Source: Bacillota bacterium (GTDB lineage Bacteria > Bacillota > DSM-12270 > Thermacetogeniales > Thermacetogeniaceae). From it: a stretch of DNA of 64,000 nucleotides. The stretch covers positions 1 to 64,000 of the forward strand of contig JARYLU010000003.1 of the NCBI GenBank assembly GCA_029907475.1. Reading direction: 5' to 3'. The notes below the pieces were generated by a model. That model had not been told where the DNA came from. It was given only the letters and a program-made list of their open reading frames with translations, and did no database searches. Below, piece by piece: positions 2,747 to 53,355 of this stretch (within the stretch, counting starts at the first letter, position 1; the number at the start of each line of letters is the position of its first letter). A program made the position numbers and the translations under genes.

Positions 2747-3181
2747 TTGGCACAGGAACAAGGCTCCGGTTCGGGGGGCCAGGTTGTCAGTCTGTTTTCT
2801 TTGATGGCGAATACACTTAACAACCTCGAAGCAAAACGAGGCGACCTCTCAAGTATCGTAGCCCTGCTCGCGCTTTTCAACCTTTTCAGTATTCTTAATC
2901 TCGTCCAGGACCAGGGTTTGGCGACTTCAAAAGATGGGGGAAGTATGCTTGCGAGCAAAGACCTTATCGGGGCCCTGGCCAGCTTGCTCGCCGATGGAGG
3001 GAAGGCAGGCCCCGAACTCCTCCTCAATCTTCTTCAGAAGCAGGGGAAAAAGATCAACCCCCAACTTCTCAGCACTCTCCTTTCACTTGCCGGAAAGGGG
3101 GGGGAGGCCTTTGAGGGAGGAGAAAGCAAGCCAAAAACGGAATCCCCTCAGGATAAGCGGCAGGGAAGGGGAATTCTTTAG
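2747..3181 (+). CDS. Hypothetical protein, 144 residues
   Basis: I do not recognise this protein. It starts at a TTG with AGGGGGG at 2731-2737. The N-terminal half is hydrophobic and low-complexity (LSSIVALLALFNLFSIL), followed by Leu/Gly-rich segments (LIGALASLLADGG, LLSTLLSLAGKGG) and a charged Lys/Glu/Gln-rich tail. No cysteines, signal peptide or catalytic motif are evident. The repeated short Leu-rich helices ending in Gly suggest an assembly or membrane-associated protein. It stands alone between the sugar genes and manC and is followed by its own terminator. Confidence 0.6.
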   Translation: MAQEQGSGSGGQVVSLFSLMANTLNNLEAKRGDLSSIVALLALFNLFSILNLVQDQGLATSKDGGSMLASKDLIGALASLLADGGKAGPELLLNLLQKQGKKINPQLLSTLLSLAGKGGEAFEGGESKPKTESPQDKRQGRGIL

Positions 3182-49808: not shown

Positions 49809-50027
49809 TCATCCACCGCCGGTCTCGTCTCCCACCTGGACGAGTTTCCCCTCACGGACCACAACAGGCACGCGGTCGGCCGCATACTCCTCTTTCACCT
49901 TTTTTCTCAGTTCAGGGTCCCCGGTTAAACAGATTTCCTGAAAAGATATGCCCTGCTTCCGGTAGCCTTCCATTACCTTTTGGCAGTACGGGCACCCTGT
50001 GAGAGTGTAGATTACCAGATCTCCCAA
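49809..50027 (-). CDS. Glutaredoxin-like thiol redox protein
   Basis: The 72-residue protein is a minimal thioredoxin fold with the redox motif TGCPYCQK near the N-terminus and RVPVVVREGK with the cis-proline. It would reduce or carry disulphides, or shuttle electrons in a redox pathway typical of anaerobes. TTG 50027 is chosen because AAGGGGTG lies upstream and the product then begins immediately before the first beta strand. It lies 120 bases downstream of the Spo0E-like gene on the same strand. Confidence 0.87.
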   Translation of the reverse strand: MGDLVIYTLTGCPYCQKVMEGYRKQGISFQEICLTGDPELRKKVKEEYAADRVPVVVREGKLVQVGDETGGG

Positions 50028-50147
50028 AATAATCACCCCTTCCAGCTTTCGCCTACATTTTATCCCAGCGCCCGGGAGAAAGCAATCCTCTTTCTTGGTT
50101 GCGTGCCTTTTCCTGCCTTGAAAATAGTCAAACACCGGAACGGCTTC

Positions 50148-50333
50148 TTAACCCCCGTCCTTTTTTGAGCAATCATTTTTTTGGGCTTTCAACCGGAGGT
50201 ACCGGTTGATGAGATCGTCCAGCTTTTCCGAGATCAGGAGCACTTCGCGCGCGGTAAGCGCGCCAAGGGAGCATTTTTGCTCCAACTCGCTTCTGAGTTT
50301 TTCAATTTCTTCGAGCAGTTTTTCCTGTTTCAG
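50148..50333 (-). CDS. Spo0E-like aspartyl-phosphate phosphatase, apparent CTG start
   Basis: This 61-residue protein matches the small helical-hairpin Spo0E family: LLEEIEKLRSELEQK as the first helix and LISEKLDDLINRYLRLK, with the SxxLDxLI signature, as the second. Spo0E proteins dephosphorylate Spo0A~P and delay sporulation. Between the upstream in-frame stop and the conserved region there is no ATG, GTG or TTG. The CTG at 50333 follows GGGGTGA by about seven bases and gives exactly the length expected, so a CTG start is the simplest reading. A sequencing error or a first codon such as ATT are less likely alternatives. Confidence 0.75.
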   Translation of the reverse strand: MKQEKLLEEIEKLRSELEQKCSLGALTAREVLLISEKLDDLINRYLRLKAQKNDCSKKDGG

Positions 50334-50471: not shown

Positions 50472-50501
50472 TTCACTGACAGGCTTTTTGTATGTTATAA
50501 T
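50472..50501 (+). promoter_or_regulatory. Promoter of the SCIFF peptide gene
   Basis: TTCACT (50472-50477), 18 bases, TATAAT (50496-50501), with TG at 50493-50494 forming an extended -10 (TGTTATAAT). Confidence 0.65.
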
Positions 50502-50543
50502 AGCTGCGGCAGTTCCTGCCAGGAGATTTTGAGGAGGGAAAGA

Positions 50544-50699
50544 ATGAAAAAGAAAAGACATATCCAGACCGTGATTGCAGGCAGCCTCCGCAAACCCCAT
50601 TTCGGGCCGGGGTGTGGCGAGTGCCAGACTTCCTGCCAATCGGCCTGTAAAACTTCCTGTACGGTAGGGAACCAGGCTTGTGAAACCCGGCAAAAGTAA
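50544..50699 (+). CDS. SCIFF ribosomally made peptide precursor
   Basis: The 51-residue product has six Cys in the C-terminal half (24, 27, 31, 35, 39, 46), in the arrangement CGECQTSCQSACKTSC then CE, which is the SCIFF (six cysteines in forty-five) pattern. SCIFF precursors are modified by a radical SAM maturase that forms sulphur-to-alpha-carbon thioether bonds. The ATG has GAGGAGGG upstream. The maturase gene overlaps its end by 20 bases. It is too short for routine gene calling. The mature product's role is not known. Confidence 0.93.
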   Translation: MKKKRHIQTVIAGSLRKPHFGPGCGECQTSCQSACKTSCTVGNQACETRQK

Positions 50700-52098
50700 C
50701 AGTACGCCCTCAGGGGTGCACCTCCACCTCTTTGCCGTTGACGGCCTCTACCTGGCTTTCGATGTCAACAGCGGTTCGCTCCACAGGCTGGACCACGTGG
50801 CATGGATCCTTCTCCGGGAACTCGTGGCAACCGGCGGCAGCTGGAATGATGCCCGCCAGGAGGCGGCCAGATTCTACCCTGCCGGCGAGGTTGCGGAGGC
50901 GGCCGCGGAAATCAAGGCTTTGGCGGAAGAGGGTCTTCTCTTTAGCGGGGATGAAGAATGGCGCTCCTTTGTACCCGGGGCGAATTTAGGCCTGAAAGCC
51001 CTCTGTCTTAACATCGCCCACAGTTGCAATTTGGCCTGTAACTACTGCTTCGTTCCCGCCGGACTCCGGACCGCAAAGGAAATCATGCCTCTGGAAGTGA
51101 TCCGGGCCGCCCTGGACTTTTTCATCAAGGAGACCCCTTATGAATTTTTAGCTGTTGACTTTTTTGGCGGGGAACCCCTCCTGCATTTTGCGGGAGTTCA
51201 AGCTGCTGTCGCCTATGCCCTTGAGATTGGAAAACATAAAAAGTGGAAATTTACCCTGACCACGAATACCCTGCTGCTTGACGAGGAGGTCCTTTCTTTT
51301 CTGCGCAAACACAACTTCTGCCTCGTCTTGAGCTGTGACGGGAGGCCCGAGACCCACGACCTTTACCGGGTGACGCCGGGGGGAGCGGGCACGTCTGCCC
51401 GGGTGGAGAAAAGAATCAGGGATTTTTTGAAGACCGGGGTGGTTCAGGAGTATTACGTCCGGGGTACGTACACGCGCCGGAATTTGCATTTCACCGAAGA
51501 CGTGCTTCACCTTGCGGAGCTGGGGGCGAAGAGCATTTCAATCGAGCCTGTCGTTGCTCCGCCCGACCAGCCTTACGCCCTCCGGCGGGAAGACGTCCCT
51601 GTGATCAAGAAAGAGTATTTCAAGCTGGCAAGGGCTCTGAGGGCACGGGAACAGGAAGGAGAAGAAATCACCTTTTACCATTTCTGTTTAGATCTTCAAG
51701 GAGGGCCTTGCGTGGCCAAGCGACTTACAGGTTGTGGCGCGGGCTACCAGTATCTTTGTGTGACCCCGGGCGGAGAGCTTTACCCCTGCCACCAGCTCGC
51801 GGGAAATCCCGCCTACCGGGTTGGTGATGTCTGGAATGGAGTTACCTCCTGTTCCCTGCCGGAAGATTTCCGGAATGCCCATGTGTACCGGAAAGAGCCG
51901 TGCCGGTCCTGCTGGGCGCGGTTTTTGTGCGGGGGCGGGTGTCACGCCCAGGCCGCTTTGCGGCAGGGGGAAATTTTTCATCCCGATTCCCTAGCCTGCG
52001 AACTGATGCGGGCACGCCTCGAAGGCGCCCTTTATTACCTCGCCCTGGGCGCGGAAACCGGAAAGGGGAGAGAAGGCCTTGCAGCACGGAGTTCCTGA
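50680..52098 (+). CDS. Radical SAM SCIFF maturase (SPASM-domain)
   Basis: The 472-residue enzyme has an N-terminal RiPP-recognition-like region (about 10-95, VDGLYLAFDVNSGSLHRLD), the radical SAM motif CNLACNYCF (Cys116, 120, 123) and a Cys-rich SPASM region (GCGAGYQYLCVTPGGELYPC, then CRSCWARFLCGGGCH). It installs thioether cross-links in the SCIFF peptide encoded just upstream. GTG 50680 overlaps the SCIFF gene; GTG 50716 is an alternative. The chromate transporter gene downstream overlaps its end by 20 bases, so the four genes are probably one transcript. Confidence 0.93.
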   Translation: MKPGKSNSTPSGVHLHLFAVDGLYLAFDVNSGSLHRLDHVAWILLRELVATGGSWNDARQEAARFYPAGEVAEAAAEIKALAEEGLLFSGDEEWRSFVPGANLGLKALCLNIAHSCNLACNYCFVPAGLRTAKEIMPLEVIRAALDFFIKETPYEFLAVDFFGGEPLLHFAGVQAAVAYALEIGKHKKWKFTLTTNTLLLDEEVLSFLRKHNFCLVLSCDGRPETHDLYRVTPGGAGTSARVEKRIRDFLKTGVVQEYYVRGTYTRRNLHFTEDVLHLAELGAKSISIEPVVAPPDQPYALRREDVPVIKKEYFKLARALRAREQEGEEITFYHFCLDLQGGPCVAKRLTGCGAGYQYLCVTPGGELYPCHQLAGNPAYRVGDVWNGVTSCSLPEDFRNAHVYRKEPCRSCWARFLCGGGCHAQAALRQGEIFHPDSLACELMRARLEGALYYLALGAETGKGREGLAARSS

Positions 52099-52684
52099 AA
52101 AAAAGAAGCCGGAGACAGCACGTCTCTGGCTTGAGCTCTTCTGGACCTTTTTCAAGATCGGTGCCCTCACTTTAGGCGGGGGGTATGCCATGCTCCCTTT
52201 AATCTATCACGAGGTGGTTGAACGCCGCCGCTGGCTGGACCGGGAAACCTTTTTTGCAGGCACCGCACTCGCCCAGGGGCTACCTGGCGCGAACGCGGTG
52301 AACACTGCAGTTTTTGTCGGTTACCGGCAGGCAGGCTTAGGGGGAGCCGGGGTTGCGGCATTGGGTTCCGTTGTCCCCTCTTTTATCATTATCTTAGCGC
52401 TTGGCCTTGTTATTTTTCGGATTTCCGCACTCCCGGCTGTTGCCGACATTTTCCAGGGGCTCCGGGCGGGAATCCTGGGTATGCTTTTATATTATTTAGG
52501 AACCTGGAGTCGTGCTCTGTACCGGGATTTCAGGTCTTTGCTCATCCTTGGGCTGGCCCTTTACGCTCTGCTGGTTCTGCAGTGGCACCCCATTGCAGTA
52601 ATTATCTGTGGCGGCCTGCTGGGCCTGCTCCTTTCCGCCGGGAATGTGCGTGTTGAACCAAAAGAAGGGGAGAAGCTATCTTGA
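52079..52684 (+). CDS. Chromate transporter, N-terminal-type half (CHR family)
   Basis: The 201-residue membrane protein has the CHR signature FFKIGALTLGGGYAMLP and GLPGANAVNTAVFVGYRQAG. In this split form the two halves form the transporter. CHR proteins export chromate, but many members in anaerobes probably move other oxyanions. The TTG start overlaps the SCIFF maturase end and has GGGGAGAGAAGG upstream. It overlaps the second half by four bases. Confidence 0.88.
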   Translation: MQHGVPEKKKPETARLWLELFWTFFKIGALTLGGGYAMLPLIYHEVVERRRWLDRETFFAGTALAQGLPGANAVNTAVFVGYRQAGLGGAGVAALGSVVPSFIIILALGLVIFRISALPAVADIFQGLRAGILGMLLYYLGTWSRALYRDFRSLLILGLALYALLVLQWHPIAVIICGGLLGLLLSAGNVRVEPKEGEKLS

Positions 52685-53196
52685 ACCTCTTCGATTTCCT
52701 CTTGACTTTTGTAAAAATCGGCCTTTTTAGTTTCGGAGGGGGGTATGCCGTAGTTCCACTGATCGCCGCCGAGGTGGTACAGCACCACCAGTGGCTGACC
52801 GCTTCCGAGTTTGCCGATTTGCTGGCTCTTTCCCAGCTTACTCCGGGCCCGTTGATGGTAAACACCGCCACTTTTATCGGGTACCGGGTCGGAGGGGTGC
52901 CCGGCGCGGCCCTGGGGACCCTCGGCGTCGTCCTCCCCGCTTTTATGATCATGCTCATATTAACTCATTATTACAGGATGTTTCGGGAGCGTGCCCTCGT
53001 CCGCCGGCTCCTCCGGGGATTTTATCCTGTTGTTGTCGCCCTTCTTGCCAGTGCCACCATTTTTTTTGCCCGTACCACTCCTTTTTCATGGAAAGTGCCC
53101 GTGATTGCCGCTTTCACCTGCGGGACCCTTGCAACAAGGCGCCTTGACCCTTTTTGGACTTTGATCGGGGCGGGGTGCTTAGGCTGGCTGCTGTAA
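52681..53196 (+). CDS. Chromate transporter, C-terminal-type half (CHR family)
   Basis: The 171-residue membrane protein has FVKIGLFSFGGGYAVVPLI and LTPGPLMVNTATFIGYRVGG, homologous to the first half, as expected for short-chain CHR pairs with antiparallel topology. The TTG start is overlapped by the stop of the first half (TTGA), a translational-coupling arrangement. No further gene follows on this transcript for 240 bases. Confidence 0.88.
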   Translation: MNLFDFLLTFVKIGLFSFGGGYAVVPLIAAEVVQHHQWLTASEFADLLALSQLTPGPLMVNTATFIGYRVGGVPGAALGTLGVVLPAFMIMLILTHYYRMFRERALVRRLLRGFYPVVVALLASATIFFARTTPFSWKVPVIAAFTCGTLATRRLDPFWTLIGAGCLGWLL

Positions 53197-53326: not shown

Positions 53327-53355
53327 TTTACTTTACCGATTTTCCGTGTTATAAT
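53327..53355 (+). promoter_or_regulatory. Promoter of the M23 peptidase gene
   Basis: TTTACT (53327-53332), 17 bases, TATAAT (53350-53355), with an upstream TG giving an extended -10 (TGTTATAAT). Confidence 0.65.

Follow-up and report, generated by a model that had tools for sequence, protein, structure and literature searches.

Overlap of a SCIFF Ranthipeptide Cassette with a Short-chain CHR Transporter Gene Pair, and Recurrence of the Linkage in Three Bacterial Classes

Introduction

The closest described counterpart of the first two genes of the locus considered here is the SCIFF/ScfB ranthipeptide system of clostridia, which comprises a six-cysteine precursor peptide and its radical SAM/SPASM maturase. 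As given in a section of one review (PMC8326336), the cross-link sites reported for CteA and Tte1186 are the fourth cysteine and the threonines at positions +2 and +5 relative to it. Passages of two reviews, both citing Chen et al. 2020, assign a quorum-sensing role to SCIFF-derived ranthipeptides (PMC8326336, PMC8102284), and an excerpt of one of the two describes lowered expression of sporulation genes and a raised agr locus upon disruption of the cassette in C. beijerinckii. The statement in a preliminary description of the present DNA that the function of SCIFF is unknown is thus partly out of date.

The counterpart of the other two genes is found in the CHR family, whose division into short-chain and long-chain types is set out in part of a further article, which also describes the short-chain pair YwrB/YwrA of B. 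subtilis as a chromate efflux system (PMC8940164). A search of the open-license literature returned no paper joining SCIFF with chromate transporters; the one match for ranthipeptide together with chromate is listed as a genome survey of Stenotrophomonas. The window analyzed here is a stretch of 64,000 nucleotides from a Bacillota bacterium (contig JARYLU010000003.1) whose genome assembly comprises 3.01 Mb in 114 contigs.

Results

Four overlapping genes in the window. The SCIFF gene, scfB, CHR1, and CHR2 follow one another on the plus strand, each overlapping the next, by 20 bases at SCIFF/scfB, 20 bases at scfB/CHR1, and 4 bases at CHR1/CHR2, and all four are matched by curated profile models (Table 1). 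The preliminary description had reported a 51-residue precursor with six cysteines, a maturase start inside the 3' end of the SCIFF gene, and a maturase gene running into a CHR pair, and all three observations hold. Between SCIFF and CHR2, no promoter-like site was found by a consensus scan of the plus strand; one such site lies upstream of SCIFF, with hexamers and spacing that appear by eye to be kept in the sister genome G001, and the next lies only after CHR2, where it likely marks the start of the next transcription unit. Judging from this arrangement of the sequence, the four genes are likely co-transcribed. The promoter evidence itself is weak, since two sites were found against 1.5 expected in shuffled sequence; terminator-like sites are also at the shuffle level.

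Table 1 Features of the SCIFF-CHR locus, in window positions
Feature	Coordinates	Strand	Start codon	Evidence
SCIFF precursor peptide, 51 residues, six cysteines	50544..50699	+	ATG 50544	TIGR03973, 77.6 bits (cut-off 50); PF13165, 78.9 bits (cut-off 27); sequence
scfB, radical SAM/SPASM SCIFF maturase, 472 residues	50680..52098	+	GTG 50680	TIGR03974, 462 bits (cut-off 425); PDB 5wgg, 374.5 bits
CHR1, first half of short-chain CHR pair, 201 residues	52079..52684	+	TTG 52079	PF02417, 153.8 bits (cut-off 28.6); TIGR00937 positions 1-163
CHR2, second half of pair, 171 residues	52681..53196	+	TTG 52681	PF02417, 171.6 bits (cut-off 28.6); TIGR00937 positions 205-368
Promoter-like site upstream of SCIFF (TTCACT, 18 bases, TATAAT)	50472..50501	+		consensus scan, weak; hexamers and spacing kept in G001 (by eye)
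Promoter-like site before M23/G5 peptidase gene	53327..53355	+		consensus scan, weak; M23, G5, and LysM domains of the gene

Several smaller features surround the SCIFF gene. An inverted repeat, GGCAGttcCTGCC, lies at 50508-50520, just 3' of the -10 hexamer of the promoter-like site before SCIFF, and G001 carries GGTAGttcCTGCC at what appears by eye to be the matching position; the repeat may act as an operator or fold as an RNA hairpin. A small Spo0E-like open reading frame (50148-50285, minus strand; PF09388, 24.2 bits against a cut-off of 23) adjoins SCIFF and draws attention in view of the tie of SCIFF to sporulation; frames weakly similar to this one lie near SCIFF in five more loci of the window's family. 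Farther upstream, at 49809-50135 on the minus strand, is a glutaredoxin-like gene resembling UXX-star but scoring below the model cut-off, relatives of which (L039 8508-8750 and L049 6432-6674) immediately precede SCIFF, in the same orientation, in G004 and G015.

The SCIFF peptide and its maturase. The six cysteines of the precursor, at positions 24, 27, 31, 35, 39, and 46, fall within ~45 residues, and C35, the fourth, is followed by threonine at +2 and +5 (T37 and T40). In ScfB, the CxxxCxxC motif reads CNLACNYC, and the SPASM model TIGR04085 is matched with 63 bits against a cut-off of 27; the Pfam SPASM model falls slightly below its cut-off (19.0 against 21.5 bits). The best solved relative of the maturase is 5wgg (Table 1). 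Throughout the window's family, f1 (20 genomes including that of the window), the scfB domain start, as extrapolated from the profile model, precedes the SCIFF stop codon in all 17 loci with a readable scfB; on these extrapolated starts, the overlap of the two genes is a trait of the family. SCIFF itself was recognized in 159 of the 181 loci surveyed, some having been missed at contig ends, and its core looks alike in loci with and without an adjoining CHR pair. In two loci, L150 and L157, a tRNA-Gly (CCC) gene (3102-3176 in both) with the same orientation as SCIFF ends a short distance ahead of it, and the SCIFF open frame extends back through the tRNA gene.

A complete short-chain CHR pair. 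Because CHR1 covers the first half and CHR2 the second half of the full-length model and each contains a whole PF02417 domain, they constitute a complete short-chain pair; neither half alone reaches the full-length TIGR00937 cut-off of 171.7 (92.4 and 121.7 bits). The term "split" chromate transporter, used in the preliminary description, is therefore misleading: by domain content, the window genes are an ordinary short-chain pair, not a broken transporter. Both proteins miss the cut-off of 250 bits of the ChrA/ChrB equivalog models NF053760 and NF053759 (81.4 and 76.3 bits for CHR1, 83.7 and 90.7 bits for CHR2), so far that chromate should not be inferred from the family name. The idea that the pair is a plain chromate-resistance determinant that shares the SCIFF promoter by chance draws on the account of YwrB/YwrA as a chromate efflux pair in the part of PMC8940164 cited above, but with neither protein exceeding 90.7 bits and with no chromate reductase or known chromate regulator among the annotated genes around the window pair, we regard it as very improbable.

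An AlphaFold model of CHR1, built from the window sequence and 33 homologs, has a mean pLDDT of 86.4 and a pTM of 0.63. Foldseek returned no match to this model at E below 4, and the best VIA-align match (Z of 7.0, a common value according to the note accompanying the tool) is to part of a mannose PTS complex. For CHR2, a sequence comparison with solved structures found no relative (best E 0.95). Neither peptide export nor chromate export by the CHR pair is supported.

Linkage within family f1. Among the 20 genomes of f1, scfB is present in 17 and CHR in seven, and in all seven the CHR pair stands directly after scfB; one of these (G002) is counted as linked from a 3.75-kb contig that opens inside the 3' end of scfB. 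No CHR was detected at E <= 1e-10 in the other 13 genomes, which include G006, read as Thermacetogenium phaeum. In nine of the 11 unlinked f1 loci read, the next recognized gene after scfB encodes an M23/G5 peptidase, the same gene that lies 3' of CHR2 in the linked loci, so the CHR pair was either inserted at, or lost from, the scfB/M23 junction. As for the remaining two loci, the contig ends in G007, and the M23/G5 peptidase was not found in G014.

Linkage in two further classes. Of 398 genomes drawn evenly from the phylum, 310 carry scfB, 293 carry CHR, and 221 carry both, the last figure being the 293 minus 72 CHR genomes without scfB that were picked by eye. The flanks of scfB were read in 161 draw genomes with both genes, and the CHR pair is linked in 21 of these and unlinked in 140. 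The linked genomes fall into three sets: six belong to f1, thirteen to the families f10, f52, f103, and f119, which form a second class, and two to f134, which is part of a third. All thirteen genomes of the second class share a divergent layout, in which CHR2 and CHR1 read to the left and SCIFF and scfB to the right from one shared intergenic region; three of them (G145, G246, and G269) contain further CHR matches. In the third class, CHR is present in six of 13 genomes tested (five of f134 and one of f69), in each case directly after scfB, and no CHR lies within at most 1.5 kb of 29 further scfB loci; four genomes (G412, G437, G441, and G403) were added to the test only once linkage was known from f134. 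The preliminary description had held that a CHR-SCIFF adjacency confined to this genome would carry no functional meaning; since the linkage recurs in three classes and in two layouts, such confinement does not hold.

Some linkages may have been missed owing to short flanks and contig ends. Flanks were fetched for 140 of the 161 genomes read, lower-scoring maturases first, and 22 of these loci have <1.5 kb upstream and five have <1.1 kb downstream because of contig ends; ten further genomes were read with flanks of 1.5 kb at most, two of them (L007 and L015) with <130 bases downstream. Gene models are greedy picks of open reading frames and include antisense artifacts (in L045 and L049; clusters 14, 53, and 49 appear by eye to be SCIFF-antisense-like). 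When an alignment of linked CHR1 sequences was compared with genome contigs, recognizable SCIFF or scfB was seen in none of the 80 best loci listed, which derive mostly from Bacteroidales and related groups and so say little on clostridia.

Alignment columns of linked and unlinked CHR sequences reveal no residue that distinguishes all three linked groups; three columns distinguish f1 and the divergent class only. In three genomes, G004, G011, and G015 (L039 10267-10926, L045 1743-2399, and L049 4256-4915), none of the first 60 codons of CHR1 is ATG, GTG, or TTG, and a CTG occupies what appears by eye to be the place of the window TTG, making a CTG start possible. A frameshift fusion of scfB and CHR1 was another candidate, given that in the loci examined the CHR1 frame stays open into scfB and that a usual start is lacking in these three; it was set aside, since f1 and f134 differ in relative frame and the CTG is available. 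In the divergent loci of f10, f103, and f119 (L053, L057, L058, L059, L061, L131, L135, and L161), a stretch of the CHR1-SCIFF intergenic region around TTGTCAC, together with GATAAGATAA or a close variant before SCIFF, appears by eye to be conserved.

Number of origins. In a FastTree tree of scfB (176 rows, three short rows having been dropped), the 21 linked rows require five changes, of which at least three are forced by starred branches. A tree of joined CHR pairs (54 rows, 20 of them linked, with unlinked rows taken from high-scoring matches) left out eight pairs that are incomplete or of odd order (linked G315 and G356; unlinked G342, G231, G211, G158, G045, and G304). Linked CHR pairs occupy four places in this tree, namely f134, f1, f52, and f10 with f103 and f119, and in none of 200 bootstraps do all linked rows fall on one side; starred branches force only one change. 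AU tests reject neither a single clade of all linked CHR (p 0.38) nor a clade of f1 and f134 (p 0.50). The independent origins may therefore number as few as two, and given the two layouts, at least two events are the natural reading. Taken together, these results suggest at least two origins, with the trees allowing two to four.

Linkage and chance. Under random placement in genomes of 2500 genes, ~0.15 linked genomes would be expected among the 161 examined, compared with the 21 seen. These considerations bear on a rival explanation, in which the CHR pair landed beside SCIFF by chance once or twice and was then kept through inherited gene order, without any joint function. In f1 and f134 alike, the pair sits at the scfB/M23 junction and may stem from one shared insertion, and if only one independent event besides that of the window is accepted, the chance probability is ~0.07 (75 times 0.00092). 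Against such chance placement stand the two layouts in separate classes, the location of every CHR found in f1 and in the third class at the SCIFF locus, and a model treating 75 families as independent, again with 2500 genes, in which the probability of at least two other linked lineages is ~0.002 and that of at least three is ~5e-5. The case for linkage beyond chance is good, albeit not closed.

Conserved neighborhoods and co-occurrence. As an inner control, the neighbors of scfB were clustered over the surveyed loci. The CHR cluster, with six families, occurs in two layouts with two or more families in each, which holds for only one other cluster, that of a gamma-carbonic-anhydrase-like protein scoring below its curated cut-off. 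Gene order around scfB is conserved in any case: the scfB/M23 junction is found in 22 families, and retention of CHR in the divergent class is not special, as genes downstream of scfB are conserved there too. In loci L053, L059, L066, L131, and L135 of this class, the gene after scfB encodes a lysine-rich protein, one tested member of which has no Pfam match, and the gamma-carbonic-anhydrase-like gene is mostly next, on the other strand.

No positive co-occurrence of scfB and CHR was found in the draw: CHR is present in 221 of 310 genomes with scfB, being absent from the other 89 at E <= 1e-10, and in 72 of 88 genomes without it, a difference in the opposite direction (Fisher p 0.055, kinship ignored). 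With this lack of co-occurrence, the restriction of linkage to few lineages, and the conserved gene order, chance arrival followed by inherited retention is a serious explanation, to which we assign somewhat over a third of the probability.

Among the 48 loci in which M23 lies just downstream of scfB, the sizeable same-strand genes that intervene are CHR, a DsbD-like membrane protein, and a molybdopterin oxidoreductase, and thioredoxin reductase often follows the M23 peptidase. The DsbD-like gene, the molybdopterin oxidoreductase gene, or both stand beside SCIFF-scfB, upstream or downstream, in six families, f3, f4, f47, f74, f101, and f123 (L008, L014, L184, L187, L192, L198, and L199), and represent a second recurrent link of scfB. 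These genes and thioredoxin reductase give no more than a hint of a possible redox theme around scfB.

Discussion

The SCIFF cassette of the window, precursor and maturase, leads into a complete short-chain CHR pair and, with it, would form a four-gene operon. Such a unit is kept in f1 wherever CHR exists, and two other classes also link these genes, one of them with the opposite layout. We consider it about an even bet that the operon is real and that its transporter has an accessory role, under regulation shared with SCIFF. The four genes would give one transcript with coupled translation, ScfB would cross-link SCIFF, and CHR1 and CHR2 would jointly form one secondary anion or oxyanion transporter. 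SCIFF control over CHR genes would have arisen on two or more occasions, as peptide and transporter would serve one condition, perhaps the redox or sulfur/oxyanion state. The transporter is placed as an accessory since in most species SCIFF occurs with no CHR linked to it.

The joining of SCIFF and CHR in distant groups and in two layouts hints at a shared job. A closer relation, in which the two are functional partners, the cross-linked peptide controlling or passing through the CHR anion transporter, and in which the pairing arose independently in several anaerobic lineages, appears unlikely to us; if true, it would give CHR a natural role beyond chromate and tie SCIFF to redox or oxyanion traffic. 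The preliminary description had proposed a link to export or to metal/oxyanion handling. Its premise of coupling gains from the recurrence of the arrangement, while the functional link itself is weakened by the lack of co-occurrence, the separation of the genes in 140 of 161 genomes, the missed ChrA/ChrB cut-offs, and the lack of a residue that marks linked CHR.

RiPP gene clusters often contain a transporter, and the tight gene coupling in the window could be taken to mean that the CHR pair acts on the SCIFF-derived ranthipeptide, as its exporter, importer, or gate. CHR is, however, also present in the 72 genomes without scfB, and it cannot be the general exporter of SCIFF, because most SCIFF loci read have no adjoining CHR and 89 scfB genomes have no CHR at E <= 1e-10. 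To our knowledge, no CHR protein transports a peptide, and we judge peptide traffic through the pair to be improbable.

The locus is informative in two ways. Few handles on the role of SCIFF exist, and a recurrent, physically coupled neighbor is one; here it directs attention to a transporter and perhaps to redox. For the CHR family, which is known for chromate, the linkage offers a possible natural context in anaerobes.

In comparison with known systems, the window locus resembles the SCIFF/ScfB ranthipeptide system in its six-cysteine precursor with the conserved SCQSACKTSC core and in its adjacent maturase, both of which score above curated cut-offs. It differs from the usual arrangement in that the f1 maturase begins within the precursor gene, whereas the median over 155 loci is a separation of 44 bases, and in that the window cassette continues into a CHR pair in the same string of genes. 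The CHR genes are in turn like short-chain CHR pairs such as YwrB/YwrA of B. subtilis, being two adjacent mono-domain proteins that jointly cover the full-length model. Unlike YwrB/YwrA, which part of the article cited above describes with the Lrp-type regulator ChrS (PMC8940164), the window pair lies below the ChrA and ChrB equivalog cut-offs and is coupled to a RiPP cassette.
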